From NCBI GenBank assembly GCA_937942145.1, contig CALDFV010000303.1, forward strand, positions 1 to 55,005: DNA of 55,005 nt, written 5' to 3'. This document shows positions 5,178-28,520 of the stretch, piece by piece. Source of the DNA: an uncultured Opitutaceae bacterium (GTDB lineage Bacteria > Verrucomicrobiota > Verrucomicrobiia > Opitutales > Opitutaceae). The notes beneath the pieces were generated by a model. That model made no database searches, had not been told where the DNA came from, and was given only the letters and a program-made list of their open reading frames with translations. The position numbers and the translations under genes are program-made. Within the stretch, counting starts at the first letter, position 1; the number at the start of each line of letters is the position of its first letter.

Positions 5178-5966
5178 TCAATCCAACCAGGATCCACCCG
5201 CTAGAAATCCGCCATCTATGGCGAATACCTGTCCAGTGGTGTAGGAAGAAGCGGGTGACGCTAATAAAAGGGCGGTGCCAATGAGCTCTTCCGGAGTTCC
5301 GCCGCGCTTCATCGGTATGCGGTGATCGAGAAACTTCACTTTCTTGGGATCGCTAAAGATTCCGGCTTCAGTCAATGGGGTACGAATAAACCCCGGAGCG
5401 ATGCAGTTTACTTGAATATTGTCCTTCGCCCATTCCAGGGCCAAGGTTTTAGTCAGCTGGCCAATAGCGGCTTTCGTCATTCCGTAGACGGGCATTCCCC
5501 CAATTCCCGTCAGAGTCGTCATGGAACCTGTATTCACTACTTTACCACACTCGGACTTGCACAAGTGGGGGTAGGCAGCCTGACAAAGCCAAAAAACGCT
5601 TTCCAAATTAATCGCCATAAGCGTTTTGTAGTCGTCTTCCGTTACGTCTATCGCCGGCTTGCGCCTATTGGTTCCAGCATTGTTTACCAGGATATCGATA
5701 CCTCCTAGCTTCGCGGCTGCTTCATCTACTAAAGTCTCCGATACTTCCTTCGTCCCCAAGTTCGCAACGAAAGGTACCGCAGAGCCTCCCTTCTCTTCAA
5801 TCTGTCGAATCGTCTCAGCGATCTTATGAGGCTGCGTTCCATGTACCCCTACAGTCGCTCCGGCTTCCGCATAGCAAACCGCGATCGAACGACCGATTCC
5901 ACTACTCGCGCCCGTTATCAAGGCCCGCTTTCCTTTTAGTGAAAAAAGTTGTTCGAATATACTCAT
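5178..5966 (-). CDS. SDR-family NAD(P)-dependent oxidoreductase
   Basis: This 262-residue protein is a classical short-chain dehydrogenase/reductase. It has the cofactor motif TGASSGIG (residues 18-25), NNAG at 95-98, catalytic Ser148 and the Y-x-x-x-K pair Tyr161/Lys165, then the P-G-F-I-R-T-P segment and a C-terminal AIDGGFLAGGSW tail. The overall sequence resembles gluconate 5-dehydrogenase and 2-deoxygluconate 3-dehydrogenase proteins, but substrates in this family cannot be read from motifs. The start codon lies four bases after the stop of the ABC permease gene, so it is the last gene of the long leftward run and may act on the same compound. Confidence 0.88.
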   Translation of the reverse strand: MSIFEQLFSLKGKRALITGASSGIGRSIAVCYAEAGATVGVHGTQPHKIAETIRQIEEKGGSAVPFVANLGTKEVSETLVDEAAAKLGGIDILVNNAGTNRRKPAIDVTEDDYKTLMAINLESVFWLCQAAYPHLCKSECGKVVNTGSMTTLTGIGGMPVYGMTKAAIGQLTKTLALEWAKDNIQVNCIAPGFIRTPLTEAGIFSDPKKVKFLDHRIPMKRGGTPEELIGTALLLASPASSYTTGQVFAIDGGFLAGGSWLD

Positions 5967-5970
5967 ATTA

Positions 5971-8900
5971 CTACGACTCGAAATCCCGTTGCAGGTCAGC
6001 TAGCGCGGGAACATTTCGCCTGTATCCAAGAAACGACCAAAAACCTGCGTTAATCAGAATGGCCACAACCAAGATAGAAACATTCAATACAGGGGCCGCC
6101 ACACCGAGATGACTCATAGAGGGAACGATGGATACAATCGCCGCGCAAATCCCAATTCCCATGCCCCAACCAATTAGCGATTTTAATTCGCTGAAGACCA
6201 CTTTCTTGCGCACGCGATTGGGTATGCCGATCGCATCCATAAGGGCGAATTCGTGACGACGCTCCGACAGGTTGCGAGCCACCACCACACCCAATCCAGC
6301 ACTTCCTAAAATAACGCCAAGACCTCCCAGAACATGGAAAATAGCGATGTAGGTGTTTTCAACTTCGTGAAAGGACTGCAGCCGATCAGAGGCAATCTCT
6401 ACTTGTCCCCCCCAAGCGCTAAGGACGGATTCAATTCGAGAACGGCTTTTCTCAATATCGCTGTCCCAGGAATCGAGCAGGAAAAGCTGGTACCCCTCAT
6501 GTTGGGGATATTTCTCCAAGAACACGCTTTCATCGAGAATCAGGCTCCCTTGGAAAACGGTATCGCTGATCGCTCCGATTAATTCGACCTCAAATGTATT
6601 TCCACCATTGTCCGTGTAGACTAGGCGATCTCCCAATTTCCGTTTCAGCGCCCACTGTAAAGTCGCACTGTCAACAAACGCGGGCACCACCGAATCGTCG
6701 GAGATTTCCTTTAAAAGATTCCAACCCTTACTGGAATCCAATCCTTCTCGAATCGAATGGAAGGTGAAGGCTCCTCTGGTTGCCAAGGTCGAGCTGTCTA
6801 AGGATAGCAATCGGGGATTCGCGGTTTGGTTCAGATTAAAGCAGCTGGCATCGTCGCCCTGACCAACGCGAATTGGGTTGATCGCGTTGTCACCATCCAG
6901 ACCAAATAGATTGTCAGGTCCGGAATAGTCGGCCGGGTCACTCAACGGAATCGAAGTCTCCGCCCAGTAGGTATACCCTCCATATCCATTTTTTGGATCA
7001 TCCCCACTGGTGTCTTTCTCCTTCCGAAAAGCCGCAACCGAAACCACAAGAAATACACCGCAGGCCAAGGTCCCCACAACGGTCAGACTCCGCATGGGTC
7101 GGCGGCCGTTATTGAGCCTACCCAATTTGGCCAGATCCAAAAGCTCTCCTCCAATCACTCTGGCAAAGTTAAGCCGGAACGCGCAAATTCCCAGGCCTCC
7201 CACCAGAAGGCAGAAACCCACTAGGAAATAGCCAATCTGCAGAGGAAGTTTCCCCAGCAAGGAAAGTCCAAACAAAGTCAATCCCCCTGCCAGGCCGGCA
7301 CTGCCAATCTTAAGGGACCAGCGTCCCTTGGTCCTACCCCCTACGCCACTCTCTTCCGACCCCTGCTGCAAGCGAAAGCTGGCTTGGGTCTTGCTTTGCT
7401 TTCTCAGAACAAACCAGATGGAGCCCATCGCTAGCCCAATGTTCGTCACGATTCCAATCGCAATCGTTGTGAGGCTACTTGAAACACCGAACATCGATCC
7501 CACAGAATTTTCACTCCAAATCGTTTCTAAAAACCGAAGTACCCCAAAGGTGTATCCATACGCCAATGGCACCGCCGCAAGAGAACCAACTACTACTATG
7601 AGTAACGCTCCCGCAAATCTCCAACGGTAGATTCGCTTATCGCTGATCCCTAACGACGACAAAAGCGCATTTTCACGATTAACTTGCTGTATCGAAAAGC
7701 TGAAAAGCATCCCAACGAGACTCAATGAAGCAATGATCAGGAAGAAGCTCATACCAATGAAGAGCCCCCCAATATCAACCGGTGAATTAGCCGACTCCAA
7801 TGCCGCATCCCGCAGCGAGACGGTTTGCATGCCCAACATCCTAGGGTCGAGAACGGCCCTAATCTCTTCTGTCAGCTCATCGGATCCTTGGAAGGACTTC
7901 GGCACTCTTAAACCCGTATACGCTCCCCACCGATTGGACCATTGAGCTTCGCCTGAGGCGAGGGAGATGAAGGCCTTAGGGGCACCCTTGAAATCATCCC
8001 AGTATTCTTCATCCTTATCCCGAATTCGATCGAGATCCAGAGGCATCCCTGCATCCCAATCACTCGAATCCTCAGCCCCTGCGACTCCAGGGAAATCCGG
8101 CATCCAAAGAGAGTCCGCCACCAGTCCGGAATGAGGAACAATCGATCGAATCGTGTAGGAGCTTGTCGCTTCAACGAGTAGACTCGACTGGTCGACTACA
8201 TAGTAACTGATATCCAAAGAATCTCCAACTGCCGCTTCCAAATCGTCTGCTAGCCATTGGGTGACAACCACTTCATCCGAACCTAACGCTTCGTCTAAGA
8301 AAGGCGCTGCTTCCGGATCAACCGCAGATACCATCGAGTAAGGCGTTTCGCGACTGTTGGTTTCCAAGGTATTGGCTAGATAAGTTATCACTGGCTCCGC
8401 CAAAGGTATACGTTTCTGGATCGCGGCCACCATTGCCTCATCCAGAAAAACACGCTCGCTACGAATTTCGGTCGCTTCTGCTAATGGAATATCTACGAGC
8501 GATAATCCGTAGTCCGCCAAGGTTAAAAGAGGATCCACAAGGGTGAACACGTCTTTCGAATCTTGCTTTTCTTTTTCATTCGATGAGTCCTTTAGCAAAA
8601 TCAAATTGGCTCTCCCAGGGTATTCGATCTGTTCTTGTATCCAGTTTATTGGGGCAAACAACGTAAAAGGAGATATCTGATTTGCCTCGAGGCCAAAACG
8701 CCCAAACTGGTCATCGGAAATTACCGCCGAAACCGTCACCCTAATCCCGATCACATTATCTTTGCTCCCGGACATCGGCGCGTCTCGTGAAAGCAAACCC
8801 GGTTTCTCTAGACGCATGACAAAGGATTCTCCTTCTTTCAATTGGAGACGCTCTGCTAAACGCTGATTTACGGCGACGGTGCTTCTAGCATCAAAATTCG

Positions 8901-9273
8901 GCGGGGTCGTCGGTGTGGGCGCGAATTTCCAAAATCGTTCATCGACACCCATCACCTGCATCTGAGGGGCCAAAAGGTTCATCTCCGATCGGGAAGCGCT
9001 TCCTCTCAGCATCAAAATGGGCGCAGAATCCATCCCTAAGCTCAACTCGATAGATTCGGCCAGCGATTCGCCTACGAATCGATCGCCCACAGTTAGAACG
9101 TATTCAGTTTTTCCCACTCGCAGTTCTGCGAGTCGCTTTAGAGCAGCGCCAACAGAATCGCCCGCCAGCAAAGCCCCAAGAAGCACCGTCGCTCCGACCA
9201 TGGTTCCGGCGACGACTCCCAGGTGGGACTTTCGGTAGTACCAAAGACTGCGTAGGAGGAACCTTAGCTGCAT
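5971..9273 (-). CDS. Large FtsX/MacB-type ABC transporter permease
   Basis: This 1100-residue inner-membrane protein has an N-terminal membrane segment (about residues 18-42) and a long extracytoplasmic region. A first FtsX-type core with hydrophobic helices lies around residues 510-690, then a second periplasmic segment, and a C-terminal FtsX core (about 990-1085). This is two permease modules in one chain. ABC systems of this type extrude or extract lipids, lipoproteins or small molecules, or act mechanically on the envelope. Its ATPase gene lies 20 bases upstream. No outer-membrane TolC-like or MacA-like partner is in the operon, which argues against a complete tripartite pump encoded here. 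Confidence 0.88.
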   Translation of the reverse strand: MQLRFLLRSLWYYRKSHLGVVAGTMVGATVLLGALLAGDSVGAALKRLAELRVGKTEYVLTVGDRFVGESLAESIELSLGMDSAPILMLRGSASRSEMNLLAPQMQVMGVDERFWKFAPTPTTPPNFDARSTVAVNQRLAERLQLKEGESFVMRLEKPGLLSRDAPMSGSKDNVIGIRVTVSAVISDDQFGRFGLEANQISPFTLFAPINWIQEQIEYPGRANLILLKDSSNEKEKQDSKDVFTLVDPLLTLADYGLSLVDIPLAEATEIRSERVFLDEAMVAAIQKRIPLAEPVITYLANTLETNSRETPYSMVSAVDPEAAPFLDEALGSDEVVVTQWLADDLEAAVGDSLDISYYVVDQSSLLVEATSSYTIRSIVPHSGLVADSLWMPDFPGVAGAEDSSDWDAGMPLDLDRIRDKDEEYWDDFKGAPKAFISLASGEAQWSNRWGAYTGLRVPKSFQGSDELTEEIRAVLDPRMLGMQTVSLRDAALESANSPVDIGGLFIGMSFFLIIASLSLVGMLFSFSIQQVNRENALLSSLGISDKRIYRWRFAGALLIVVVGSLAAVPLAYGYTFGVLRFLETIWSENSVGSMFGVSSSLTTIAIGIVTNIGLAMGSIWFVLRKQSKTQASFRLQQGSEESGVGGRTKGRWSLKIGSAGLAGGLTLFGLSLLGKLPLQIGYFLVGFCLLVGGLGICAFRLNFARVIGGELLDLAKLGRLNNGRRPMRSLTVVGTLACGVFLVVSVAAFRKEKDTSGDDPKNGYGGYTYWAETSIPLSDPADYSGPDNLFGLDGDNAINPIRVGQGDDASCFNLNQTANPRLLSLDSSTLATRGAFTFHSIREGLDSSKGWNLLKEISDDSVVPAFVDSATLQWALKRKLGDRLVYTDNGGNTFEVELIGAISDTVFQGSLILDESVFLEKYPQHEGYQLFLLDSWDSDIEKSRSRIESVLSAWGGQVEIASDRLQSFHEVENTYIAIFHVLGGLGVILGSAGLGVVVARNLSERRHEFALMDAIGIPNRVRKKVVFSELKSLIGWGMGIGICAAIVSIVPSMSHLGVAAPVLNVSILVVAILINAGFWSFLGYRRNVPALADLQRDFES

Positions 9274-9293
9274 GAGACTTAATGAAACAACAG

Positions 9294-9968
9294 CTACCCT
9301 TGCCGCAGCTTTCCATTCTCCAACGAGTAAACTCTACCCATTCGATTCGCTAGAGCCATATTGTGAGTGACAGTCACGAGGGTCACATCGTGCTGGTTAT
9401 TCAACTGAGCAAACAAGTCCGCTACTTGATCTCCCATCGAAGGGTCCAAAGAGCCGGTCGGCTCGTCAGCAAGAACGAGAGCGGGCTGATTTATCAACGC
9501 TCTCGCAACCGCCGCCCGGAGTCGTTCCCCGCCCGATAGTTGAAAAGGCATATGATCCAACCGGTGCTCCAAACCTAATTCCTGAATCAACTTCCTTGCC
9601 CGTTCTCTCGTCTCGTCTTCGCCCTCTTCCCAGTCACCTGCCAAGCGAGGGATTAAGACATTCTCCAAGACTGAGCATTGAGGCAGCAGGAAATGTTGCT
9701 GGAAAACAAACCCGAGTGTGTGATTCCGGAATCGGGCCCTTTCATCGGCGTCCATCCCTTCTAGGCTTTTACCAGAAATCGAAACGGATCCGCTCGATGG
9801 AATGTCCAAAGTCCCCAGGATATTTAGCAAAGTGGTCTTTCCACAACCCGAAGGTCCCACGATGGCAATGGAGTCACCTTTCAATACTTTGAGCTCAAGT
9901 TCATCTAGCACGGTAATATCACCCGCCGGTCCTGAATATCGCTTAACTAGATTTTGAATTTCAATCAT
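9294..9968 (-). CDS. ABC transporter ATP-binding protein (LolD/MacB type)
   Basis: This 224-residue ATPase subunit has Walker A GPSGCGKTT (residues 38-46), a Q-loop in the FVFQQHFLLPQ segment, the signature LSGGERLRAAVARAL, Walker B followed by DEPTGSLD, and the switch His in VTVTHN. The length and the FQQHFLLP segment match LolD/MacB/FtsE-type ATPases. It sits between the PaaK-like ligase and the large FtsX-type permease on the same strand with gaps of 19-20 bases, so it very probably pairs with that permease. Confidence 0.93.
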   Translation of the reverse strand: MIEIQNLVKRYSGPAGDITVLDELELKVLKGDSIAIVGPSGCGKTTLLNILGTLDIPSSGSVSISGKSLEGMDADERARFRNHTLGFVFQQHFLLPQCSVLENVLIPRLAGDWEEGEDETRERARKLIQELGLEHRLDHMPFQLSGGERLRAAVARALINQPALVLADEPTGSLDPSMGDQVADLFAQLNNQHDVTLVTVTHNMALANRMGRVYSLENGKLRQG

Positions 9969-9987
9969 CAGTCGACAAAAAATAGAA

Positions 9988-11244
9988 TTAATCGGACACG
10001 CTCCAACGCTTCGCCTTCATTTCAAACTGAGGAAGCGTTCCCAACTTCACAACATCTACGGGTATTCTCAAAGCAAATACTTCCCTCAACCGCTTCTGTA
10101 GTTTCATCCTCATGAGTTCGTCTTCGACATCCGAAATATTTTCCACCTGAATGCTAGCCTGAACCATAGAATCCTGCTTGCTAATACTCACCTGGTACTC
10201 CCCAATTCCTTCAAACGAACGAATGACCGCGTCCACTGCGCTAGGGTAGAGATTGATTCCACGAACCACTACCATGTCGTCAGCACGTCCGATGATTCCC
10301 CCTTCGAGCGCAAATGCTCGAGGGTCTTCCCCTTCAATCCGAACCGGTTTTACGAGATCTCCGGTCCGATATCGGAACAACGGGCTTCCATTCCGGCCCA
10401 AAGTCGTCAGCACCAGTTCTCCTATATTTCCAAAGTTAATGGATCGACCCGTTTCAGGTTCAACCACTTCTGCATAATAGGCCTCGTGGATTATCCTCAG
10501 AAGCTTCGGATTCTCTCTGTCGGAGTAAGTGACCGGTCCCACTTCAGTCATTCCATGATGATCGAATACTCGGGCCCCGCCCCACCCTTCTTCAATTCTA
10601 CTTCTAACTTCCGCTACACTCCCCCCCGGTTCGCCTCCTACGATGATGCTTCTTACCGAGCATTTCGTCAGATCAACGTTTTCCTTTTCTGCCACATTCA
10701 TCAAATGGAGGGCATAGGTTGGCGTGCAACAAAGCCACTGCGGCTCGTGTCGGAAAATCATCTGAAGTCGCTCAAGGCTTTGCTGTCCGCCAAGCGGGAT
10801 ACAGCGAAGACCCACTTTTGACGCCGCCTCAAATGCGGACCAAAATCCAATAAACGGACCAAACGAAAAAGGAAAGATCGCCGTCTCGCCCGCTTTTGCG
10901 CCACAAGCCCGCCAAATGTAAGCCCAGCTGTCGATGATCCAACTCCAACTTTCGGGCGTATCCAGCCAAGCCATAGGGCGACCCGTTGTTCCGCTCGTCT
11001 GGTGCAGTCTTGTGTAATCTTTTAAGCCATACGACAAGTTCGATCCATAGGGTGGATTCGCTCCATAATCCTCAGCAAGCTTCCGCTTAGTGGTAAAGGG
11101 CATTTTTTCAGAAAAGGCATCTAGACTATCAAAGCCCTTCGATCCTCCGCACTCAGCGATCTTGGACTGATAGAAAGCATTGCCCTTCACCGCGATGGCG
11201 ATCGCCGTGTTCAATGAGGCTAGCTGCTGTTCAGCTAGACCCAT
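9988..11244 (-). CDS. PaaK-like AMP-dependent ligase (phenylacetate-CoA ligase family)
   Basis: This 418-residue protein of the adenylate-forming superfamily has the P-loop HQTSGTTGRP, an acyl-binding core, a D-H-H-G-M-T-E-V-G-P segment, Y-R-T-G-D-L-V near the hinge and a C-terminal PaaK-type domain with R-G-I-N-L-Y-P-S-A. Members activate aryl or other carboxylic acids to acyl-AMP and usually to CoA thioesters. The length matches PaaK (about 430). Its start ATG directly follows the stop of the small membrane protein gene (TAAATG), so translation is coupled. It is the second adenylating enzyme of the cluster, the other being at 20941. The substrate is unknown; an aromatic acid is favoured by the family and by the nearby chorismate-lyase-like gene. 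Confidence 0.87.
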   Translation of the reverse strand: MGLAEQQLASLNTAIAIAVKGNAFYQSKIAECGGSKGFDSLDAFSEKMPFTTKRKLAEDYGANPPYGSNLSYGLKDYTRLHQTSGTTGRPMAWLDTPESWSWIIDSWAYIWRACGAKAGETAIFPFSFGPFIGFWSAFEAASKVGLRCIPLGGQQSLERLQMIFRHEPQWLCCTPTYALHLMNVAEKENVDLTKCSVRSIIVGGEPGGSVAEVRSRIEEGWGGARVFDHHGMTEVGPVTYSDRENPKLLRIIHEAYYAEVVEPETGRSINFGNIGELVLTTLGRNGSPLFRYRTGDLVKPVRIEGEDPRAFALEGGIIGRADDMVVVRGINLYPSAVDAVIRSFEGIGEYQVSISKQDSMVQASIQVENISDVEDELMRMKLQKRLREVFALRIPVDVVKLGTLPQFEMKAKRWSVSD

Positions 11245-11775
11245 TTACCCTTGTGTATCGCTTTCCGAAATCGCTGCCGGAGGAGGACTCTTCGCATGGG
11301 CAGGTGCAGGAGCTGGCTTGTAAACCGTAACGAGACATCCCCCGAGAGCCGCCAATACGATGCCTAGGAAAAACTGCCATGGAACGGCGGATACACCTCC
11401 CTGAGGGGGGTGAAGCTTCATGGATACGATAGCATTCACCACTGGCGCGCCCGCAAACACAATGGACATTACAGCCGCCGGAGTTCCTTTGGCCCCAAAG
11501 GCGAGTAGAATGCAAAATGCGCCCAGAGCTCCTAATAGGCCCGCTACAAACGAAAGGGAAATCCCTTTCATCGGAAACGTGAATGCGGCCCCTTGAAACT
11601 TAAGCAGGATAATCGGAACGATGATCGCGATTACGAGATAAGCCACTCCGACAAACAGAAATGCTTTGTACCGACCCCAAACAGGATCTTTCATCGCGAT
11701 TTGACCGGTGTGGAGGAAAATGCCGTATAGCCCGAAAAAGAGAGCCGTCATTAAAGAGTAGATAAGCCAATTCAT
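11245..11775 (-). CDS. Small DMT/EamA-like integral membrane protein
   Basis: This 176-residue protein has about five hydrophobic helices and a Pro/Ala-rich cytoplasmic-looking tail (PAPAPAHAKSPPPAA). The arrangement of glycine-rich helices (GLLGALGAFCILLAFG, then a P-x-x-N-A-I-V-S-M helix) resembles one half of a drug/metabolite transporter (EamA-like), which may act as a dimer. It lies between the hotdog thioesterase and the PaaK-like ligase and touches the latter's start codon. A role in moving the cluster's substrate or product is an inference. Confidence 0.65.
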   Translation of the reverse strand: MNWLIYSLMTALFFGLYGIFLHTGQIAMKDPVWGRYKAFLFVGVAYLVIAIIVPIILLKFQGAAFTFPMKGISLSFVAGLLGALGAFCILLAFGAKGTPAAVMSIVFAGAPVVNAIVSMKLHPPQGGVSAVPWQFFLGIVLAALGGCLVTVYKPAPAPAHAKSPPPAAISESDTQG

Positions 11776-11824: not shown

Positions 11825-12289
11825 CTATAGATGCTGCGATTCTTGAGCGGCCTTGAGTTTCTCCTGCAACTCAGGCGGAATTTCAATCGACACGATCTCT
11901 CCAGTATCCCGATCAAGCCGGACACTGGCGGTAACGATACGACCTGAGGCAATCAGCACATCATCAGAATCGGTTTCTTTGAAGAAGTAGTAGAGGCAGC
12001 GCAACGATCTCCGACGAATTTCCTGGATCGTGAGCCGAATCTTTATTCGGTCTTCGAAGCGGATCGGCTTGAAAAAATCGCAAGACGCTTGAACCCGCGG
12101 CCAACCTACTGAGACATCGTCTATTCTTTCGTGCACTCCATGACCCAACGAACGGAAAAACGCGTGTTCAGTCACTTCCATATACCGGTAAAAATTCGAA
12201 AAATGGACGATTCCCGCCATATCTGTCTCTGCGAATTCCACTATACGCTCGTATTCAAAACAATATGGCTGTGGCTCTAGTCTACTCAT
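11825..12289 (-). CDS. Acyl-CoA thioesterase, 4-hydroxybenzoyl-CoA thioesterase (hotdog) family
   Basis: This 154-residue hotdog protein begins with the hallmark E-F-A-E-T-D-M-A-G-I-V-H-F-S-N-F-Y-R-Y segment, in which the Asp of the T-D-x-x-G-I-V-H-F motif is the family's catalytic residue (YbgC/4HBT group). It would hydrolyse an acyl- or aryl-CoA, or an acyl-carrier thioester. The start overlaps the glycosyltransferase stop by eight bases, which indicates coupling. In combination with two PaaK/LuxE-type ligases and a chorismate-lyase-like gene in the same run, a benzoyl-type thioester is an attractive but unproven substrate. Confidence 0.87.
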   Translation of the reverse strand: MSRLEPQPYCFEYERIVEFAETDMAGIVHFSNFYRYMEVTEHAFFRSLGHGVHERIDDVSVGWPRVQASCDFFKPIRFEDRIKIRLTIQEIRRRSLRCLYYFFKETDSDDVLIASGRIVTASVRLDRDTGEIVSIEIPPELQEKLKAAQESQHL

Positions 12290-15165: not shown

Positions 15166-15696
15166 TCAGGCGAGCGGAAGAATCTCGATAATCGACGCGA
15201 GCTCGTTCTCCTCGCCATTAACCAACTGATTATATCTCCCGTAAAGTATGGAATCTTCGCTGCAGCCAAACCGTTTCTGGCAGACCAAGGGAGCTTGAAT
15301 GGAGAAAAAACCTTTCGGACGGCTAACATAGGTGTATTGCATCCGGTTCAGGATACTTCCCAGTGGCTCTTTGCCCTCCAAAATGGAGTTGCGCGCTTCC
15401 GGTCGAAAGTGGTCTAGCTGGATCCGAATCGCTCCATATTCAACCGGTTTCCCCGTAGACTCGGCAAAAAGAACGACTTCCCGCACGTACCCGCTTCCCT
15501 CATTCGTTTCCTTGAGAACCTCCAAGCCAATTCCAGAACCATGGAAGTCGGCCAGCGTGGAGGTCATGTCTTTCTTGTGCACGAGTAAATCTCGATAGGG
15601 ACGCGGCATTTCAGAGCCTTCGATCCAATGGAGAGATCCAGCGGACAAACTCGGCTCGTCTACGATCCGCTCTAAAAAATCAGGGAATTGATCCAC
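15166..15696 (-). CDS. Chorismate-lyase-like protein (UbiC/DUF98 fold)
   Basis: This 176-residue protein starts at GTG 15696, 33 bases after the radical SAM stop. Its length matches UbiC (165 residues). The segment Y-V-R-E-V-V-L-F (Arg72) aligns with the region of UbiC Arg76, followed by the P-V-E-Y-G-A-I-R-I strand, the PLGSIL motif and a C-terminal Y-G-R-Y-N-Q-L then I-I-E-I-L-P-L-A. The end resembles UbiC's W-G-R-R-S-R-L and T-E-A-F-L-P-A. The position of the catalytic Glu (UbiC Glu155) is only approximately aligned. If active it would convert chorismate to 4-hydroxybenzoate and pyruvate; it could instead be a non-catalytic relative. It is packed between radical SAM and flavoprotein genes. 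Confidence 0.6.
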   Translation of the reverse strand: MDQFPDFLERIVDEPSLSAGSLHWIEGSEMPRPYRDLLVHKKDMTSTLADFHGSGIGLEVLKETNEGSGYVREVVLFAESTGKPVEYGAIRIQLDHFRPEARNSILEGKEPLGSILNRMQYTYVSRPKGFFSIQAPLVCQKRFGCSEDSILYGRYNQLVNGEENELASIIEILPLA

Positions 15697-17061: not shown

Positions 17062-17071
17062 AATATTTGCA

Positions 17072-19398: not shown

Positions 19399-19400
19399 GG

Positions 19401-20852: not shown

Positions 20853-20940
20853 CAAATTTTGCTCCTGTTGTAAATGCGCTCTCACTTGCGATACCTCTCA
20901 AGAGAATCACAGAAGACCGGCATTACAGTTTACTTAACGA

Positions 20941-22026
20941 TTAATAGACGCCTTCGATTACCTTTTTCTTTGTCGATTCGAACGGACGTACGTCCCCGAC
21001 ACCATCCCAGGGGAACAGGTCGCATGGCCGTCGTCGAATAGCTTCGTCGCGCTCTAGAAATCTTGGCATGAAAAACTCCTTGGTCATGGTGGTCAGTTCC
21101 ACTCGACCGTAGGAATCGTATTCCACGCCTTTCGTCGAATCTTTGGGATCCACAATCCTCAATACAGCCCTTGGTTGCGGCGCATAATAGGTGAGACTGT
21201 AGTTATCTTCCGCAGACAGCGGCCGACTTATCGCCAGACCCATCAATGTGTTTCCATAGGTAGGAGCAAAATTCACTTTTCCCTCCAAAACTTCCTCCGT
21301 AAGGAACCTGACGTATTGAGGGGTCATAGTGGTGCCTCCAACGAAGACCCCTTTAATGCCCGCTTGAGGGATTGAGATCCGCTCAGCCAGAGCTTCCAGA
21401 ATTGTAGGAGTCGTAAACATACAACCGATATTACGTCCTTTTAAAATCGTGATTGCCTGCTCGACAACATGCTCCTTGTACTTACGAGCCATGTCATACT
21501 CGCCATCGCGAATCAGTCGTTTTACCCAGCGAGGATCCAGATCAATAAAATAACACGCGCCACCGCGAACGTTTGCCAAATGCTCAATCGCCAGTCGCAG
21601 TCGACGGGGTCCAGTCGGTCCAACCATTAACCAGTTCGCGCCCTTCGGAAAGAAATCGTCAGAGTAGAAATCACTAAATTCGGAGTAATCTACTTTGTAG
21701 TCTTCCCATCCAATCCGTTGCTTTGGCATCCCAGTGGTTCCACCAGTCTCGAATACGTTGTAAGGCTTATCCTTAAAGGCCGCTGGGATAAACTGAGCCG
21801 GATCGGTATCCCGAAGTACTTCGTCATCAAAATTCTCGAAACGCATCATGTCCTCAAACCCGGACACTTCGGTGAGCGGGTTCCAATCCGCTTCTTTCGC
21901 CCAGTCGAGCCAGTAAGGACAACCCGTTTCCGGCGAAAAATGCCACTGAACCATATCCTGAGTATACTGGTCCAACTTTTCTTTAGCGGCGTCCACCGCG
22001 TTAGTGATATCTTTTGTTTGAGTCAT
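20941..22026 (-). CDS. LuxE/PaaK-like acyl-activating (acyl-protein synthetase) enzyme
   Basis: This 361-residue adenylate-forming protein has the P-loop ETGGTTGMPK (residues 93-102), a G-P-T-G-P-R-R-L segment, a F-V-G-G-T-T-M-T-P loop and a terminal E-R-D-E-A-I-R-R segment. The length matches LuxE (about 370) rather than PaaK, because the full C-terminal PaaK domain is missing. LuxE-type enzymes activate a carboxylic acid with ATP and hand it to a reductase. Here the next gene is the LuxC-like reductase, so the pair could form a carboxylic-acid reductase. There is no luxAB, so light emission is not implied. Confidence 0.8.
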   Translation of the reverse strand: MTQTKDITNAVDAAKEKLDQYTQDMVQWHFSPETGCPYWLDWAKEADWNPLTEVSGFEDMMRFENFDDEVLRDTDPAQFIPAAFKDKPYNVFETGGTTGMPKQRIGWEDYKVDYSEFSDFYSDDFFPKGANWLMVGPTGPRRLRLAIEHLANVRGGACYFIDLDPRWVKRLIRDGEYDMARKYKEHVVEQAITILKGRNIGCMFTTPTILEALAERISIPQAGIKGVFVGGTTMTPQYVRFLTEEVLEGKVNFAPTYGNTLMGLAISRPLSAEDNYSLTYYAPQPRAVLRIVDPKDSTKGVEYDSYGRVELTTMTKEFFMPRFLERDEAIRRRPCDLFPWDGVGDVRPFESTKKKVIEGVY

Positions 22027-22123
22027 TTCGAAGGAGAGTTTTGCCCCGATTGTCGCTCCCTACTATAAAAAATAGAAAGCGAAGAACCTTTGAGCTGAGT
22101 TTCTTGAGAGTGTTAGTAGATAG

Positions 22124-23638
22124 CTAGGCCTTCTTTTTAAAGAACTTGTCCAACGTATCTTGGGACGGAGCTTGCGTGAAAAGGGAAACCACCACCATGC
22201 AGATCGCGCAGGTAACGAAAATCACGGCAACTGGCATCACGCCACCCACTAAGTACGAACCATTGGCCCCATAGTCAGACTCTCTGAAGAGAAGAAACCA
22301 TGATAGAGCGCTTCCAATAACAGCTGCATAGGCTCCCGCCTTGGTTGCTTTTCTCCAGTAGATTGCTGCGAAAACGAGCGGAAACAAACCTGCGAAACCG
22401 CTAAAGCACCATATCCCAAGAGAGAACACCGATCTCGGTTCTGCCAACGTAAACAGGTACGTTACGAAAACGATGGTGCATATAAATCCTCGGGCCAGCA
22501 GCACCTTTTGTTTTTCAGAAAATCGGTCGATTCCGAAAAAGTGGACTACAATATCCTTGGTAAACATCGTCCCAACCGCCACAAACTGAGAATCTAGAGA
22601 AGACATTATGGCGGCCATGATACCAGCGGTTACAAGTCCGCCTATAATCGGAGTCGCTAATTTCCCAACCATCATTCCGAGTACTGCATTTGGGCTAGTT
22701 CCCTCAGGGATGACTGGTGTCACTCCGTCTGGCATTACGGCACCCGTTGCCCAAAGCCCGATTAGGATACAAGGTATCCACGTTATCATGATTGCGATGG
22801 GATGTGCGACTAGAGTCAGTCGGAAGGATTTCGCAGACTTCGCGGTCAGGCAGTTTTGGAACAAGTGAGGAAACATTCCCACCGATAGCGGGATGAAACA
22901 ATAGGAAAGAAACTGCATCTCTGTCAGGTTTCCTGCACGGACCGCCTTGCCCGGATCCGCCATCGCTGACGCCGCCTGCATCCCTCCCAGCTTTGAGGAA
23001 ATGGTGACAAACGCTATGAATCCCATTACGATGAATACACAGGTTTGAAAGGTATTCGCCCAAGCGGCGCTTCTTACACCACCGGCAAAAATGTAGTAGA
23101 GAACCACGCAGGAAATGACGAGCATCGTCAACCACGGCGGGACCGCCCCTCCGGTACTCGTAAAAATCTCGGGGAACGCTCCTCGCGTTACGCCTTGCAT
23201 GACGCTTCCTGCACCCATCAAACCGACCAGCAGATAAGGAATAATGAGTCCGACAAGTATCGGGAACAAGAGGTATCCCAGCTTGCTGCTTTCAAATCGG
23301 GCCCGAAAGAACTCAATCTGAGTATGAAAACCATTGCGTTTTCCCAGAGCCCACAGTGGCAATCCGACGAGGAAAAAGCAGGCGGAATGAATGAGGGCAG
23401 AGGAAGAGGCTACTTTCCCATACGTCGCAATTCCTACCCTGTAGGATTCTCCGGTGCTACCCACCATAGCGAAGGCGGTCATCGTTGTGCCAAAAATCGA
23501 CATAAAGAGGACGAGAGGGCCAATCGAGCGACTCGCCACAAAATAGTCGTTTGAATTTCCTCTGAAAAGCCGGCTACTGAAATAGCCAAGAACTAGAAGA
23601 AGTATGAGATAAATAACTACAATTAATGTCTGGGTCAT
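22124..23638 (-). CDS. Sodium/solute symporter (SSS family)
   Basis: This 504-residue inner-membrane protein has about thirteen hydrophobic helices. The N-terminus shows the SSS features Y-F-S-S-R-L-F-R-G-N-S-N-D-Y-F-V-A-S-R-S-I and G-P-L-V-L-F-M-S-I-F-G-T-T-M-T-A-F, and the sodium-site region I-M-A-A-I-M-S-S-L-D-S-Q-F is intact. SSS carriers import sugars, organic acids, amino acids, choline or pantothenate with Na+. Its start overlaps the small membrane protein stop (ATGA). The position ahead of the acid-activating ligase suggests that it brings in a carboxylate or its precursor. The substrate is not determinable from sequence. Confidence 0.92.
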   Translation of the reverse strand: MTQTLIVVIYLILLLVLGYFSSRLFRGNSNDYFVASRSIGPLVLFMSIFGTTMTAFAMVGSTGESYRVGIATYGKVASSSALIHSACFFLVGLPLWALGKRNGFHTQIEFFRARFESSKLGYLLFPILVGLIIPYLLVGLMGAGSVMQGVTRGAFPEIFTSTGGAVPPWLTMLVISCVVLYYIFAGGVRSAAWANTFQTCVFIVMGFIAFVTISSKLGGMQAASAMADPGKAVRAGNLTEMQFLSYCFIPLSVGMFPHLFQNCLTAKSAKSFRLTLVAHPIAIMITWIPCILIGLWATGAVMPDGVTPVIPEGTSPNAVLGMMVGKLATPIIGGLVTAGIMAAIMSSLDSQFVAVGTMFTKDIVVHFFGIDRFSEKQKVLLARGFICTIVFVTYLFTLAEPRSVFSLGIWCFSGFAGLFPLVFAAIYWRKATKAGAYAAVIGSALSWFLLFRESDYGANGSYLVGGVMPVAVIFVTCAICMVVVSLFTQAPSQDTLDKFFKKKA

Positions 23639-23856
23639 TGCTCATTCCCTTCATTTTCCTCTTCCACCAAATACTTTGGCCAAGCAAACCTTACAATAAC
23701 CAGCCAAGCAATTGCAGCCACTGCGGTGAATGCCATATGGTAAGCCAGGCCGATGGGTAAGATACCCAGAACCAATGTAGCATCATCCCGGAACCAGAAG
23801 TCCTGGTGAAGCACGAACAAAACCAGCATGAAAGTGATGACGACTCCTTTACTCAT
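23635..23856 (-). CDS. Small DUF3311-like membrane protein, symporter partner
   Basis: This 73-residue protein has two hydrophobic helices and an acidic tail (EEENEGNEQ). Small proteins of this size and topology (DUF3311-like) are commonly encoded just upstream of SSS symporters. Here it overlaps both neighbours by four bases: ATGA with the propeller gene stop at 23853-23856 and ATGA with the symporter start at 23635-23638. The three genes are therefore translationally coupled. The function is not established; an accessory subunit of the carrier is likely. Confidence 0.75.
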   Translation of the reverse strand: MSKGVVITFMLVLFVLHQDFWFRDDATLVLGILPIGLAYHMAFTAVAAIAWLVIVRFAWPKYLVEEENEGNEQ

Positions 23857-25409
23857 TTTCCGCCCTTCTTCAATGCGTACAAGTGAGTTTGGGTCGCGAT
23901 ATAGAGAACATCTTTAGCCACCACTGGGCTACTGTAGATCGGAGTGAAAAACTCAACGGTAGCGAGCTCCTTCTTTTCCTTTGTCGCAGCGAGCACAACC
24001 AATTGGCCGTCCTCGTTTGGCAAATACACTTTACCATCTGCTACCAGTGTAGATCCCCAAATGCGGCTGTCAGTAGCGTGCACCCAATTTACTTTTCCCG
24101 TATCCACATCCAAACAATGGATATCTCCATCGTATTCCGCTACAAAAATCATGCCATTGTAGATACTGGGGGTAGAGACTGTTCTGCCAATGTCCTTATA
24201 GGTCCAAATGGCTTTTCCGGTGATATCGCCTTTCATGGACGCATCAATGGCGCTAAGCATTCCCACGCCATCACCGTGCTCGGGGTCCTGTCCAATCAAA
24301 GCGAATGCCTTATCGTCATGGACAACGACCGTACTGATAATTTCACTAGGGCCCGGATAGGTGGCGTACTTGATCGGTTTGCCCTCCTTCATTCGGTACT
24401 CAGGCGGATTGGCATCATAACGGAAAACTTCATTTAGAATCTCATATCCTTCGGATCCCACAACCGGCTTCGGTTCAAATCCGTAACAAATTCCATCACC
24501 CCCACCCCATATAATGAGGGGAGTCCCGTTGATATCTCCGTAAGCAGGTGAGCTCCAGCTCGCATGAAGCACTCGCTCAGAAACTTGAGAAGCCTCTTCA
24601 CCCACCAGTCCACCAGTCGTCTTGTTGAGAGCCACCAAAGCGGGTGAGAAAGGAGCAGGAATATTGTTGTGGGACCAGTCCACCCCATTGGAAGTGGACA
24701 CATACAGTAAATCGCCAACGACAAGCGGAGAACAACTGCTCACATTGTGAGGGAACACACCCAGCTCTTCTCGCATATCATAAATCCACAAAATATCCGC
24801 ATGTCCATTCGTCAATTCCACCGGGTTGCCGTCCGCAGACATGTAGTTTGCCTCGTCCTGAAAAGGACCGTCGTTTCCGTTGGCCAAACCATTGAGATCA
24901 AGGCAGACCGCCTCGCCTCGGTTGGTAACGACATAAACTTTGTCTCCTTCGACAGCAGGAGACGAACAGAGACCCACATATTCCCAGTCACTCACTTTGC
25001 CGGCTCCAAGCTTTGGGATCAAAAGCTGCCATTCGAATTCCCCAGTATCTTCGTTAAACGCCATCAGCACGCCTCGGTCACCCAACTGTTTAGGATCGCG
25101 GGGGGATTCATTATTCGTACCCGCAAATACCTTTCCACCAGCTACCGTCACGTTTCCGTATGCTTGTGATCCGAGCTTTGCCACCCAAAGCACATTTTCC
25201 GTAGTGGAAAGATCAATATCGTCGGTACCTGAAACGTAATCTCCGGGCTCGACATTTACCGGTAGGTTCTTTGCTTCGCCAATCATGTTGCGATCTGGGG
25301 TCCTACCCCACATTGGCCAATCAGAACCTTTGCTTTTATGGTGGTCGGCGAACGATGCGAATCCTATTGCGAGTGCGGCTAAACCTATACTTATTTTATA
25401 AATACTCAT
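23853..25409 (-). CDS. Exported PQQ-like beta-propeller protein coupled to the symporter
   Basis: This 518-residue protein has a signal peptide ending near FASFADHH, then DWPMWGRTPDRNM, a close variant of the motif that opens many PQQ-like propellers. Blade signatures such as M-A-F-N-E-D-T-G-E-F-E-W, I-H-C-L-D-V-D-T-G-K-V-N-W and V-L-A-A-T-K-E-K-K-E are spread through the chain. It is longer than a bare propeller because of loops rich in Asp and Asn. It is coupled by ATGA overlap to the DUF3311-like/SSS pair, which suggests that it handles the symporter's solute in the periplasm, as a binding protein or oxidoreductase. That link is an inference. Confidence 0.87.
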   Translation of the reverse strand: MSIYKISIGLAALAIGFASFADHHKSKGSDWPMWGRTPDRNMIGEAKNLPVNVEPGDYVSGTDDIDLSTTENVLWVAKLGSQAYGNVTVAGGKVFAGTNNESPRDPKQLGDRGVLMAFNEDTGEFEWQLLIPKLGAGKVSDWEYVGLCSSPAVEGDKVYVVTNRGEAVCLDLNGLANGNDGPFQDEANYMSADGNPVELTNGHADILWIYDMREELGVFPHNVSSCSPLVVGDLLYVSTSNGVDWSHNNIPAPFSPALVALNKTTGGLVGEEASQVSERVLHASWSSPAYGDINGTPLIIWGGGDGICYGFEPKPVVGSEGYEILNEVFRYDANPPEYRMKEGKPIKYATYPGPSEIISTVVVHDDKAFALIGQDPEHGDGVGMLSAIDASMKGDITGKAIWTYKDIGRTVSTPSIYNGMIFVAEYDGDIHCLDVDTGKVNWVHATDSRIWGSTLVADGKVYLPNEDGQLVVLAATKEKKELATVEFFTPIYSSPVVAKDVLYIATQTHLYALKKGGK

Positions 25410-25414
25410 GCTGC

Positions 25415-27709
25415 TTAGTTGTTGGGCGTGATTTCAAGATTGTCTAAATAAACACGTTTTTGGGCTTGGGGCGAAAGTGCGTAAATCGCGGGTGCCCCCT
25501 TTTTGTGAAGTTTGTCTACGGGAACTTCGATCGTCCAAGCATTCGGCTCGGGTTGATCTCTTTCCCATGCTTTGGCCAGGATTACTCCGGTTCCATCTCC
25601 ATTGTCTTTAATTGAGGTTTTAAGTCGATACCAAGTGTTGGCCTTCACGTTGAACGGAACTGACTCTTTAAGGCGGTCGTGATTGCTCGACACTTCGAGT
25701 ATCCTCCAATTGCCGACAAGGGCGATCAAGTATCTTTGATTGACCAGTCCAATGGAAGACATGATCCGGCGATTGCCATCTGTGAGCACATCTGCAGAAA
25801 ACGTATAGTTAGAGAGGTCGTGATGACCGACAAAATTCATCGTCCGCTGCTTGATGACGGAATCGAGAACATTGGTTATCACCTTTTCTCCTTCGCGCTC
25901 GATCACGCTCCACTTGACGCGGGCCCCGAGCCAGGTTGATGGCGGAAATGAAACCGATTCACCTAGATGGTTCTTGGCTGTGAGATCGAAGCTCTCAAAA
26001 TCTTCACTGTAGGAGGGTCCGGCGACAATGCGCCCTCGGGTCGTACCCGTGATGCCATTCGCGGTCGCCTTGACAACGCCCGCCGCATAAGCTGCGTCCT
26101 TTTTGACGTTCATTGTCTTCCCGGAAAAGCTGACTCCCAGCGAACCCGCGTCCCACTTTACGCTATCCAATTTTTTGATACGCTGCCCGACACTATTCAG
26201 GCCCCAAACCGTAAAGTCGACAGACTGGCCTTTCATTAGCGCAAACTCCGCTGGAACGACTTGGAGATCCACGATCTTCTTGTCCTTGATTTTTTCTTTG
26301 GCAGCTTTAACACCCACAAATTTGCCGCCGCTTTCTCCAAAACAATGCAAGGCCTCCTTGGTTTGAACATACACCTTGCCCGCGTAGGCAGAAGGAGCTG
26401 CTAGGCAAACGGCCCCCATATCCGCTTCATTCAGTATCTCGCCATGATCATCGTGGGGCTTAACCACATAGGCTTTTCCATCCGCCATCGGTACGTAGAG
26501 CTTTCCGTCCGCGTAAAGAGGAGACGCGTGTAGCTGGTCGGGAGCGAGTTTGAGTGACCAAATCGTCTTTCCCGTTTCCGCATCAACGCAGAGAAGGCTT
26601 CCGGTAGCGATCGTACTGTAGACCCGACCATTGTGTAAGACCGGGGAACTGCTAAACGAAACATGCTCGTCGTTTCGCCATACTTCATCCTTTTCCGTTA
26701 AAATAACCGGTTTGTCACCCGACGGGTACTGAGATGGAACTCGGTAGCAAACTAGCCGGCCTTTCGCGGTCGAGTCGATGTTCTCTTTGCCGTGGATGGC
26801 GATGAACTTATCGTCCCCGTAAGGCAGAACCGACGCATTAACCCCGCCTGTGGAAATCGTGACCCGCCAGACGGGCTCACCCGTTCGCGCATTCGAGCAA
26901 ATGATGCTGCCCGAGCCTGTTCCCGCTATGAAAACGCGTTGTCGATGCAGATCGGTAAACGTGGGCGACGAGTTGGAGCTGTCAACGGGTCTAATGTCCG
27001 GGGCGGATGACCAGGCAAGCTCTCCCGTACGTTTATCAAAGCCATAAAACCGGTCACCAGGAGGGCCACTGGGGCCCCAATTTGCCGTTATGCCACGAAA
27101 AATGACGAAATCGCCCTCTATGACAGGTCCGCCCGTTCTGCCATTCGGAAATGTCAGACGCCAGTATTCTTCTAGCATTGAGTGTTCCCAGAGCTTGTTA
27201 CCGTCCCGATCAAAAGCCAGAGCGAGTCCCGACGTCGGCATAAAGTAGACGTTGCCGGTTTCAGGATCGACGCAGGGCGAACCGATACCATAACGATTGT
27301 AAACATTGTCGCTCAGGAAGTCACGCGACCGATATTCCCAAATCTTCTTGCCCGAATTCGCATCGAGGCAAAGCAATGTTTCCTCGACTAGCTTTCCTTC
27401 ATTCTCTTCGTAATAGCCGAAAACATAGGCTCTTCCATCCGCTATAACCGGCGCGCCCCCTCCATTAACGGGATAGCTCCAAAGGTGACTTTCTCCATCT
27501 AGCTCCAAGGAGTCCGGAAGATTCTTTTCCAGGGAAACTCCCGTCTGCAAGGGACCCCGCCATGATAGCCAGCCATCAACGCTTTTCGCCGAAAGGACCG
27601 GCATAAGCGCCAGACTAGCTATTGCGAGCACTGCTAACAGCCCTGCCTTGTTTCTACGGGGGTGAGTATTCGTGGATGTAGACGAAACGCCTATTTTATT
27701 TCCATACAT
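25415..27709 (-). CDS. Exported PQQ-like beta-propeller with C-terminal jelly-roll domain
   Basis: This 764-residue protein starts at ATG 27709; an upstream start at 27805 would add a Leu-rich stretch before the signal peptide and is less likely. A long n-region and signal helix (LLAVLAIASLALMPVLSA) lead to W-L-S-W-R-G-P, then propeller blades (L-C-L-D-A-N-S-G-K-K-I-W, Y-G-F-D-K-R-T-G-E-L-A-W, C-V-D-A-E-T-G-K-T-I-W) to about residue 480. An Ig-like linker follows, and then a concanavalin/LamG-like domain beginning at E-D-F-E-S-F-D-L. It is the promoter-proximal gene of the MarR-linked cluster and ends five bases before the next propeller gene. The C-terminal domain suggests binding to a glycan or surface ligand. 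Confidence 0.86.
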   Translation of the reverse strand: MYGNKIGVSSTSTNTHPRRNKAGLLAVLAIASLALMPVLSAKSVDGWLSWRGPLQTGVSLEKNLPDSLELDGESHLWSYPVNGGGAPVIADGRAYVFGYYEENEGKLVEETLLCLDANSGKKIWEYRSRDFLSDNVYNRYGIGSPCVDPETGNVYFMPTSGLALAFDRDGNKLWEHSMLEEYWRLTFPNGRTGGPVIEGDFVIFRGITANWGPSGPPGDRFYGFDKRTGELAWSSAPDIRPVDSSNSSPTFTDLHRQRVFIAGTGSGSIICSNARTGEPVWRVTISTGGVNASVLPYGDDKFIAIHGKENIDSTAKGRLVCYRVPSQYPSGDKPVILTEKDEVWRNDEHVSFSSSPVLHNGRVYSTIATGSLLCVDAETGKTIWSLKLAPDQLHASPLYADGKLYVPMADGKAYVVKPHDDHGEILNEADMGAVCLAAPSAYAGKVYVQTKEALHCFGESGGKFVGVKAAKEKIKDKKIVDLQVVPAEFALMKGQSVDFTVWGLNSVGQRIKKLDSVKWDAGSLGVSFSGKTMNVKKDAAYAAGVVKATANGITGTTRGRIVAGPSYSEDFESFDLTAKNHLGESVSFPPSTWLGARVKWSVIEREGEKVITNVLDSVIKQRTMNFVGHHDLSNYTFSADVLTDGNRRIMSSIGLVNQRYLIALVGNWRILEVSSNHDRLKESVPFNVKANTWYRLKTSIKDNGDGTGVILAKAWERDQPEPNAWTIEVPVDKLHKKGAPAIYALSPQAQKRVYLDNLEITPNN

Positions 27710-28031
27710 AGCAATTAGGTGTTGAAAGACATAACGATTGGATTTCTTCCAAAGTTTCCCTTCTGGAAAACATAATAGTGACAGCAAGTGAAGCCAAACA
27801 AGCAACTCTTGCAGAAATTTGGGGGTGATGGGTACTTAAGGGATTCGGACGCATTAATAACGAAAGGCGACTATGAGAGGAAACTGATACGAACACGTAT
27901 TATAGTGTCAATCTGTTTATCACGCGTTTAATCATTTGGCTCCCTGTTATAGCGGTCAAACTTCAGATTTAATCAGTTCTCAGTAGACAAGGAGAGATGA
28001 TTTTACTACGCATGCCTATTAATAACCCGCA
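27710..28031. other. Divergent promoter region between the cluster and marR-like gene
   Basis: This 322-base stretch has no credible gene; the leftward frame entering it belongs to the propeller gene's unused upstream start. It is AT-rich relative to its neighbours and holds a perfect minus-strand TATAAT at 27899-27904 plus an inverted repeat overlapping it. The sequence AAGGAGAG near 27990 lies too far from ATG 28032 to be a normal ribosome-binding site for the regulator. Confidence 0.6.
27885..27904 (-). promoter_or_regulatory. Inverted repeat over a -10 box: candidate MarR operator
   Basis: The plus strand reads TGATACG-AACA-CGTATTA at 27885-27902, a 7-4-7 inverted repeat with six of seven pairs matching. 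On the minus strand it overlaps a consensus TATAAT at 27899-27904, so a bound regulator would block transcription of the cluster. Its size (18 bases) and position between divergent genes fit MarR operators. No good -35 box is visible for the minus-strand promoter. Binding by the adjacent regulator is inference. Confidence 0.5.
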
Positions 28032-28520
28032 ATGAACCCACCCTCACAAATACCCGAAAGCCCAGCTAACGCCTCGCAAAAACGCTTCCCTCTCTTGTTG
28101 CGTTCCGCTTGGTTTGGCCTGAATCAGAGTTTTCGCATTCGCATAAAGCCACTCGGGCTGACGCCTGACCAATTCACCGTGCTGCGCTGGCTACATGAAA
28201 AGAAAGGCGAGTGCATCCGCCAATCCGACTTGGCGCAATTAATGTCGAGCGATAACAATACCATAACCTCCATCATTAACCGCATGGAAACAAACGGTTG
28301 GGTCAAGCGCTCACCCCACATCCACGACCAACGCGCCAAGCAACTCATCATCGAGGAAGCCGGGGAAGCGCTGTATTTCAAAGGCCAGGCAGTCGCTCAA
28401 GCCCTTGAAGATGAAATCATGAATAGCCTAAGCGAAGCGGAACGCTTGATGTATTTGGAGTTCATGCATAAAGTGACACGAGCTTGCCTCGACTCCCGCG
28501 ACGCCAGCCGGAGAGCTTAG
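28032..28520 (+). CDS. MarR-family transcriptional regulator
   Basis: This 162-residue winged-helix protein shows the MarR architecture: an N-terminal dimerisation helix, the L-T-P-D-Q-F-T-V-L-R-W-L segment, recognition helices in S-D-L-A-Q-L-M-S-S-D-N-N-T-I-T-S-I-I-N-R-M-E and the wing I-H-D-Q-R-A-K-Q-L. MarR proteins usually repress a divergent operon and release DNA on binding a phenolic or CoA-thioester ligand, for example regulators of benzoate, hydroxycinnamate or phenylacetate genes. It is transcribed away from the 22-kb leftward cluster, making that cluster its natural target. Confidence 0.9.
   Translation: MNPPSQIPESPANASQKRFPLLLRSAWFGLNQSFRIRIKPLGLTPDQFTVLRWLHEKKGECIRQSDLAQLMSSDNNTITSIINRMETNGWVKRSPHIHDQRAKQLIIEEAGEALYFKGQAVAQALEDEIMNSLSEAERLMYLEFMHKVTRACLDSRDASRRA

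Follow-up and report, generated by a model that had tools for sequence, protein, structure and literature searches.

A gene row of an uncultured Opitutaceae bacterium and its relatives as a candidate pathway to a small, exported aromatic product

In grixazone formation by Streptomyces griseus, GriC forms the acyl-AMP of aminohydroxybenzoate and GriD reduces it (PMC10179220). The bmp pathway leads from chorismate to 4-hydroxybenzoate by the chorismate lyase Bmp6, and on to a halogenated phenol by the halogenase Bmp5 (PMC7918430). The planctomycete strain 10988 is described with 3,5-dibromo-p-anisic acid (PMC12078418), and fungi with a redox cycle in which cell-made aryl aldehydes are turned into alcohols that aryl-alcohol oxidases re-oxidise (PMC8140971). 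Our statements on these four papers refer to the parts of each that are cited here. Here, we describe a row of genes at positions 5178-28520 of a 55,005-nucleotide stretch of DNA (hereafter the window) from an uncultured Opitutaceae bacterium, contig CALDFV010000303.1, whose assembly comprises 3.5 Mb in 320 contigs and is 88% complete. An earlier reading of this DNA from its letters alone (the sequence-only reading) knew of no described system with such a combination of genes, and we likewise found no description of it in the literature searched, which covers few subscription papers. We propose, with a probability of roughly 55%, that the row belongs to a single, co-inherited pathway that makes and exports a small aromatic compound, leading from chorismate through a decorated aryl acid to an aryl alcohol.

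In order to see whether the genes of the row are inherited together, we employed a sample of 288 Verrucomicrobiota genomes, each at least 85% complete. Four genes were followed over the whole sample, namely those of an adenylating protein of the EhpF/GriC type (EhpF-like), a reductase of the aldehyde dehydrogenase (ALDH) fold, a chorismate-lyase-like protein (CL) and a flavin-dependent halogenase-like protein (Halo). Each was present in the identical 12 genomes, which belong to five families (three genomes in f1, six in f33, and one each in f29, f51 and f56). The chance probability of such identity is 2e-21 under a simple model that ignores kinship; since the genomes are related, the real significance is lower. 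The four genes are spread over three or four contigs in five of these 12 genomes. The scattering is seen in f33, where in G306 each of the four lies on a separate contig, while in G297 the EhpF-like and Halo genes are about 185 kb apart on contig C8, with the ALDH gene on C10 and the CL gene on C21. The sequence-only reading had taken genes in unrelated places in relatives as a sign against a shared unit. In f33 they literally lie so, but their co-occurrence supports one pathway. Thus, as the four genes occur in identical genomes though scattered, it can be concluded that they form one pathway and not an accidental neighbourhood, and that a single transcript is not required.

Three further genes were compared between the 12 EhpF-positive genomes and 57 EhpF-negative genomes of the same sample. 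The PaaK-like ligase was found in all 12 positives at 459-713 bits, whereas the negatives reached at most 228 bits, which is a full separation; lower-scoring paralogs occur in 23 of the 57. The propeller protein PQQb was present in 12/12 positives and 2/57 negatives, and the GT4 glycosyltransferase in 12/12 and 5/57, respectively.

Genes were assigned by open reading frame (ORF) calling and by Pfam and NCBIfam scans, some of whose match lists hold the best 25 matches. In the window, 18 leftward genes (27805 to 5178) stand behind a divergent MarR gene. The sequence-only reading had counted seventeen; their positions were confirmed, and the gene it missed is the DUF3311 gene at 23635-23856. Most of the functions it named agree with the Pfam and NCBIfam matches, except that its 'LuxE-like' protein is an EhpF-type member of the ANL superfamily and that its permease is one 1100-aa protein. 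The genes are given below in the order of transcription from PQQa to the short-chain dehydrogenase/reductase (SDR), preceded by the regulator and followed by a TonB-dependent receptor.

28032..28520, plus strand: MarR-type regulator, divergent (Pfam MarR, E 1.8e-13)
25415..27805, minus strand: PQQa, PQQ_2/BamB-like beta-propeller with a C-terminal extension, predicted exported by the look of its N-terminus (PF13360, E 7e-30)
23853..25409, minus strand: PQQb, beta-propeller, predicted exported by the look of its N-terminus (PF13360, E 1e-22)
23635..23856, minus strand: DUF3311 small membrane protein, 73 aa (PF11755, E 5.5e-8)
22124..23638, minus strand: SSS-family sodium:solute symporter (PF00474, E 2e-33)
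20941..22026, minus strand: EhpF/GriC-type aryl-acid adenylating protein (profile match to EhpF 3l2k/3hgu, E 1.6e-58)
19401..20885, minus strand: ALDH-fold reductase, partner of the EhpF-like protein (PF00171, E 1e-17)
18244..19398, minus strand: iron-type alcohol dehydrogenase, ADH (PF00465, E 6e-50)
17072..18247, minus strand: PQQc, beta-propeller, probably a lipoprotein judging by its N-terminus (PF13570, E 1.6e-53)
15730..17127, minus strand: HemN-type radical S-adenosylmethionine (SAM) protein (PF04055, E 1.6e-21; HemN_C PF06969, E 3.5e-10)
15166..15696, minus strand: CL, chorismate-lyase-like protein (structure model with Foldseek, conserved residues)
13733..14989, minus strand: Halo, flavin-dependent halogenase-like protein (PF04820, E 5e-29)
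12282..13589, minus strand: GT4 glycosyltransferase (PF00534, E 5e-23)
11825..12289, minus strand: 4HBT hotdog thioesterase (PF13279, E 3e-13)
11245..11775, minus strand: small membrane protein with several spans, DMT-like only by the look of its sequence (Pfam: no match above cut-off)
9988..11244, minus strand: PaaK-like aryl/acyl-CoA ligase (PF00501, PF14535)
9294..9968, minus strand: LolD-type ATP-binding cassette (ABC) ATPase (PF00005, E 9e-32; LolD model 249 bits, its cut-off of 308 not reached)
5971..9273, minus strand: FtsX-type permease, single 1100-aa protein (PF02687, two stretches)
5178..5966, minus strand: SDR (PF13561)
286..2229, minus strand: TonB-dependent receptor, left of the cluster (Plug domain, E 1e-6)

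The tight packing and the divergent regulator noticed in the sequence-only reading were borne out by ORF calling: intergenic gaps are mostly 0-100 bases, several overlaps measure 4-8 bases, and the DUF3311 gene overlaps both its neighbours. Larger gaps lie between GT4 and Halo (143 bases), Halo and CL (176) and PQQa and MarR (226). With its listed TTG start, the radical SAM gene would share 56 bases with PQQc; a later ATG, near 17061, is the likely start. Short palindromes were seen inside the MarR-PQQa gap in the window sequence alone, and promoter and terminator scans gave signals close to chance level.

Conservation of the gene order was assessed in an order-level sample of 132 genomes, 20 of which, the window's own included, encode the EhpF-like protein, and in the best 80 loci retained from at least 575 stretches with an EhpF-like relative in a scan of GTDB genomes. 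We counted the loci having at least four core genes on the strand of the EhpF-like gene (n=84, window included; L079 is the contig of G007). The comparison of neighbourhoods around this gene, which the sequence-only reading had suggested, revealed a conserved multi-gene unit with the canonical order in 82/84 loci, and the gene row is therefore more than chance. The exceptions are L108, with the 4HBT gene before PQQa, and G184E, with ALDH and the small membrane gene before the EhpF-like gene; L135 carries the second half of the row in inverted orientation. Seventeen of the 18 leftward genes, and sometimes the MarR gene, keep this order in relatives from other families, and in the stretches around EhpF-like genes of the order-level sample the same row was found in families f1, f2, f8 and f18. 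The gene left out is the SDR, which the sequence-only reading had taken for a cluster member. It lies at the corresponding place in the sister genome G328 of the same genus (98%), in which the entire row is present with 93-99% identity, CL being lower (79%), but it has no match in G001, G018, G027, G032 and G097, the best-covered stretches, which extend to the FtsX gene.

Neighbours were counted with one profile per gene and in testable loci only. PQQa is followed by PQQb in 83/83, PQQb by the symporter in 52/83 and the symporter by EhpF-like in 54/55. ALDH lies within 3 kb of the EhpF-like gene in 67 of 95, and the row then continues as ALDH-ADH (62/66), ADH-PQQc (47/63), PQQc-radical SAM (41/47), radical SAM-CL (42/44), CL-Halo (27/42), Halo-GT4 (13/14), GT4-4HBT (11/13), 4HBT-membrane gene (9/12), membrane gene-PaaK (9/11), PaaK-ABC (7/7) and ABC-FtsX (6/7). 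A MarR gene diverges from PQQa in 27 of 71 PQQa loci, PQQa is directly preceded by a receptor gene of the TonB family in 17 of 55, and DUF3311 is present in 32 of the 80 named loci. In some relatives, additional genes separate 4HBT from the small membrane gene; they vary by genome (their kinds were judged by eye) and were excluded. Small groups recur also in the six f33 genomes: PQQa-PQQb in 6, radical SAM-CL in 6 (PQQc added in 2), ALDH-ADH in 5, and 4HBT-membrane gene-PaaK in 3 (ABC and FtsX nearby in 2 of them). In seven loci (L095, L097, L098, L121, L127, L131 and L138) an MFS gene replaces the SSS symporter between PQQb and EhpF-like.

According to record titles, the loci come from Verrucomicrobia, Planctomycetota, Armatimonadetes (with Chthonomonadaceae), Vicinamibacteraceae, which we take to belong to Acidobacteriota, and one Actinomycetota metagenome-assembled genome. 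The closest named relative among the best 80 of the at least 575 stretches is the Opitutaceae record L064, with an EhpF-like protein 94% identical. CL lies within the locus in 24 of the 80 named loci; a search of 50 genomes from the remaining 56 found it elsewhere in 41. Moreover, distances of the EhpF-like protein correlate with those of five partner proteins (r 0.71-0.85), and 0/200 permutations were as high for each, with kinship ignored.

The best supported of the predicted steps is the reduction of the carboxylate. The profile of the EhpF-like family matches EhpF (3l2k/3hgu) over its full length (10-357 of 357, with the same GVY end) and, like it in this respect, the window protein is without the usual C-terminal ANL domain; the other PDB matches of the profile, to E 0.01, are only partial and belong to chlorobenzoate-CoA ligase. 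LuxE-type fatty-acid reduction was dropped, as EhpF is the clear relative and the LuxE and LuxC Pfam models are not among the matches. As the 'LuxE-like' protein falls into the EhpF/GriC family, the two adenylating enzymes of the row differ in likely role, aryl-carboxylate reduction for one and a PaaK-like CoA ligase for the other. EhpF relatives on plasmids amount to 28 records, and the 15 listed include Streptomyces genes named 'arylcarboxylate reductase'. The EhpF-like gene adjoins an ALDH gene in a phenazine cluster, in a Streptomyces cluster with DAHP synthase and pabB, and in a haloarchaeal row on a Halalkalicoccus plasmid (L206, 6559-10617) that consists of SSS symporter, EhpF-like and ALDH genes and suggests an older module in which an aryl acid is imported and reduced. 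Beside one of the Streptomyces 'arylcarboxylate reductase' genes lies a polyketide synthase gene, with no ALDH in the stretch examined. In a set of nine proteins, the profile of the cluster ALDH matched the three EhpF-neighbouring ALDHs (E 2e-44 to 5e-54). Its Cys is invariant (79/79), and an equally invariant His (79/79) stands where solved ALDHs have the Glu of LEAGGK. By the general mechanism of these enzymes, His in this position fits an acyl-transfer and not a hydrolytic enzyme. The two proteins thus match the two-component aryl-carboxylate reductases (GriC/GriD, EhpF/ALDH), the activity predicted for them. In the iron-type ADH, the Asp/His/His/His set, which we take to be the metal ligands, is kept in 74, 73, 74 and 74 of 74 sequences.

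For the supply of the aryl acid, the structure model of CL (pLDDT, the predicted local confidence, 90.1) was compared with known folds. Foldseek assigned it to the chorismate lyase/UTRA fold, with DUF98 (2nwi, E 2e-8) as the best match, followed by UTRA-type domains from E 2e-5 and the E. coli chorismate lyase (1g81, E 6e-5). The protein has no Pfam match, and its profile found nothing significant in the PDB. In a weak alignment with UbiC, the stretches DSMT, REILL and TPLG of CL fall opposite DMT, REV and EPLG of UbiC. Met and Arg are kept in 75/75 sequences, a C-terminal Glu in 73/74, and the Leu position is Leu or Phe. The register of Met, Arg and Leu comes from the weak alignment, past whose end Glu lies; we take these four, as to roles and UbiC numbers, to be the ligand residues of UbiC. 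Conversion of chorismate to hydroxybenzoate by CL has, in our view, fair support.

Ring halogenation and methylation are predicted from family resemblance. PDB matches of Halo are the halogenases 8zop, ChlB4, 3e1t, PltA and CmlS; the glycines of GxGxxG are conserved in 45/45 sequences and WxWxIP with a Lys in 46/46, presumably functional halogenase motifs. With 202 bits against an NCBIfam cut-off of 900, it is not a CmlS, and other kinds of halogenase are possible. In four genomes with scattered genes the Halo gene stands near an ABC ATPase gene followed by genes for 254-272 aa and 350-356 aa; the two adjoin in L213, L215 and L218, and in L217 the ATPase gene is one gene away. The radical SAM protein has CxxxCxxC in 70/70 sequences and a HemN_C domain, features of HemN-type (class C) radical SAM methyltransferases, and resembles HemN and the methyltransferase NocN (9p2u, E 1.6e-30); it stays under the NCBIfam hemN cut-off (192 vs 325 bits), and its reaction is probably a C-methylation. 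The Pfam and NCBIfam matches listed for the cluster proteins include no model of a ketosynthase or a carrier protein, in agreement with the sequence-only reading, which saw neither these nor a nonribosomal peptide synthetase (NRPS) module. NRPS adenylation models match the PaaK-like and EhpF-like proteins weakly, far under cut-off, as superfamily kin. A conserved 79-aa family considered as a carrier protein proved to be DUF3311, a probable partner of the SSS symporter. Readings as an aryl polyene, flexirubin or dialkylresorcinol cluster were given up, as no ketosynthase or carrier is among the matches listed and FlxY reached 113 bits against a cut-off of 520. Anti-phage defence was set aside as well, since none of nine cluster proteins gave a PADLOC match.

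Taking together gene order, co-occurrence, family assignments and residue conservation, we infer the following reactions, product, direction and biology, the order of the steps being a guess. CL would form hydroxybenzoate from chorismate, and the PaaK-like ligase and the hotdog thioesterase would bring the substrate onto and off coenzyme A (CoA). The radical SAM enzyme and Halo may modify the ring. The EhpF-like protein would then adenylate the carboxylate, ALDH reduce it to the aldehyde, and the iron-type ADH convert this to a benzylic alcohol. GT4 would add a sugar, so that the product is probably glycosylated, and the LolD/FtsX pair would export it. The SSS/DUF3311 symporter (or the MFS protein), in some genomes with the TonB receptor, may take up an aryl acid, which MarR would sense.

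Uptake genes and propellers are not explained by biosynthesis alone. They suggest that the cell also imports an aryl acid, either a foreign substrate or its own product in spent form. Any role of the three propellers in the pathway is conjectural. The PQQb model (pLDDT 75.9) matched BamB first and quinoprotein dehydrogenases at similar TM-scores, and we place the propeller, with uncertainty, between the two. A PqqC search of 13 genomes gave no match, but its control was silent throughout. If the propellers were periplasmic dehydrogenases, the row might serve an aryl-alcohol redox shuttle: a halogenated aryl alcohol would be made and exported, the propellers would oxidise it to the acid, the symporter would return the acid, and the EhpF/ALDH/ADH chain would reduce it again, so that reducing power is carried outside as in white-rot fungi. 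We consider this shuttle, taken as a whole, unlikely.

Several observations weigh against the proposed pathway. It is predicted from its genes, and the propellers are only putative enzymes. Six of the 12 positive genomes come from one family, so that the 12 are not independent, and PQQb and GT4 scores in some negatives reach those of the weaker positives. Halo was not within 3 kb after CL in 15 of 42 testable loci, and G007, G048 and G089, of the 20 order-level positives, have no ALDH beside the EhpF-like gene in the neighbourhood examined. A PF04345 (Chor_lyase) search of the genome to which the window belongs yielded nothing at E 0.001, the E. coli control being positive; UTRA ligand-binding domains fit the fold of CL no worse than chorismate lyase does; and the alignment with UbiC has an hhalign probability of 1.6% (P 0.032). 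CL was not found in 9 of the 50 genomes searched, absences that are soft because most of these genomes are metagenome assemblies, and its match in G328 (G328:C1:57623-58087, L162) holds one TGA and one TAG. Together with the 79% identity of this copy, compared with 93-99% for the other cluster genes, these stop codons suggest decay or an assembly error.

An environmental aryl acid might instead be taken up for detoxification or use: TonB receptor and symporter would import it, the reductase pair and ADH would reduce it, other enzymes would modify and expel it, and CL would be a UTRA-like binding protein or another protein. The UTRA domains among the fold matches of CL and the presence of MarR regulators fit this reading, as do the SSS-EhpF-ALDH row, which stands without the other genes in the Halalkalicoccus stretch examined, and the core from PQQa and PQQb through SSS, EhpF-like and ALDH to the iron-type ADH, which is separate from the remaining genes in many loci. 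Uptake alone is, however, difficult to reconcile with the distribution of CL, found together with EhpF-like in 12/12 genomes and in 0/276 others, and with the Met, Arg and Glu it keeps at what we take to be ligand positions of chorismate lyase. We regard it as possible, if somewhat unlikely. That the genes would make a new redox cofactor for the three co-encoded propellers seems distinctly unlikely. PQQa and PQQb are paired in 83/83 loci, PQQb accompanies the EhpF-like protein in all 12 positive genomes, and PQQc, radical SAM and CL are often together, but sugar transfer, an export pair and a CoA ligase are unexpected for a cofactor retained in the cell, and PQQb is as close to BamB as to quinoproteins. 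Separate housekeeping units, adjacent by accident, would account for the scattered places of the genes in some relatives; since the scattered genes are nonetheless found in the same 12 of 288 genomes, such an accident is very unlikely.

Outside the row, two more PQQ_2 propeller genes lie beside the TonB receptor (286-5149, left of the cluster). A second leftward block at 36265-43418 encodes a sulfotransferase, a class IV aminotransferase, an EamA transporter, an AcrB-type pump and an HlyD protein.

The proposed pathway, from chorismate through an aryl acid to an aryl alcohol, offers a concrete and assayable chain. At least 12 gene families, among them seven examined for co-occurrence across whole genomes, travel together in several phyla even where they are dispersed, and the remaining pathway genes may be found by co-occurrence instead of neighbourhood. 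The EhpF-like and ALDH proteins, in turn, are likely two-component aryl-carboxylate reductases and represent a large new group of them.

As far as the known systems are concerned, the grixazone pair shares with this locus an adenylating protein and a separate reductase for an aryl carboxylate; GriC/GriD are likened here by description and not by sequence. The grixazone acid, however, comes from GriI/GriH and not from a chorismate lyase, and the cited part of the description names no propellers, halogenase-like protein or radical SAM enzyme (PMC10179220). Phenazine clusters of the griseoluteic-acid type provide EhpF, the closest solved relative, and in an annotated cluster an ALDH gene follows the EhpF-like gene, but the EhpF-like protein of the row is about 36% identical to that of the annotated cluster and no phenazine core genes are among the cluster proteins of the window. 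The pairing of chorismate lyase and halogenase is shared with bmp in the part cited (PMC7918430), whereas its P450 coupling enzyme with ferredoxin was not found among the cluster domains of the window, and the carboxyl here is seemingly reduced and not lost. The compound of strain 10988, likened by product only, is of the halogenated hydroxybenzoate type and comes from one of the phyla concerned (PMC12078418). The fungal aryl-alcohol cycle is an analogy only, its oxidases being flavoenzymes of another superfamily (PMC8140971). Pathways to small aromatic natural products are known; what sets the present one apart is its unusual make-up, its wide spread and the co-inheritance of its genes even where they are scattered.

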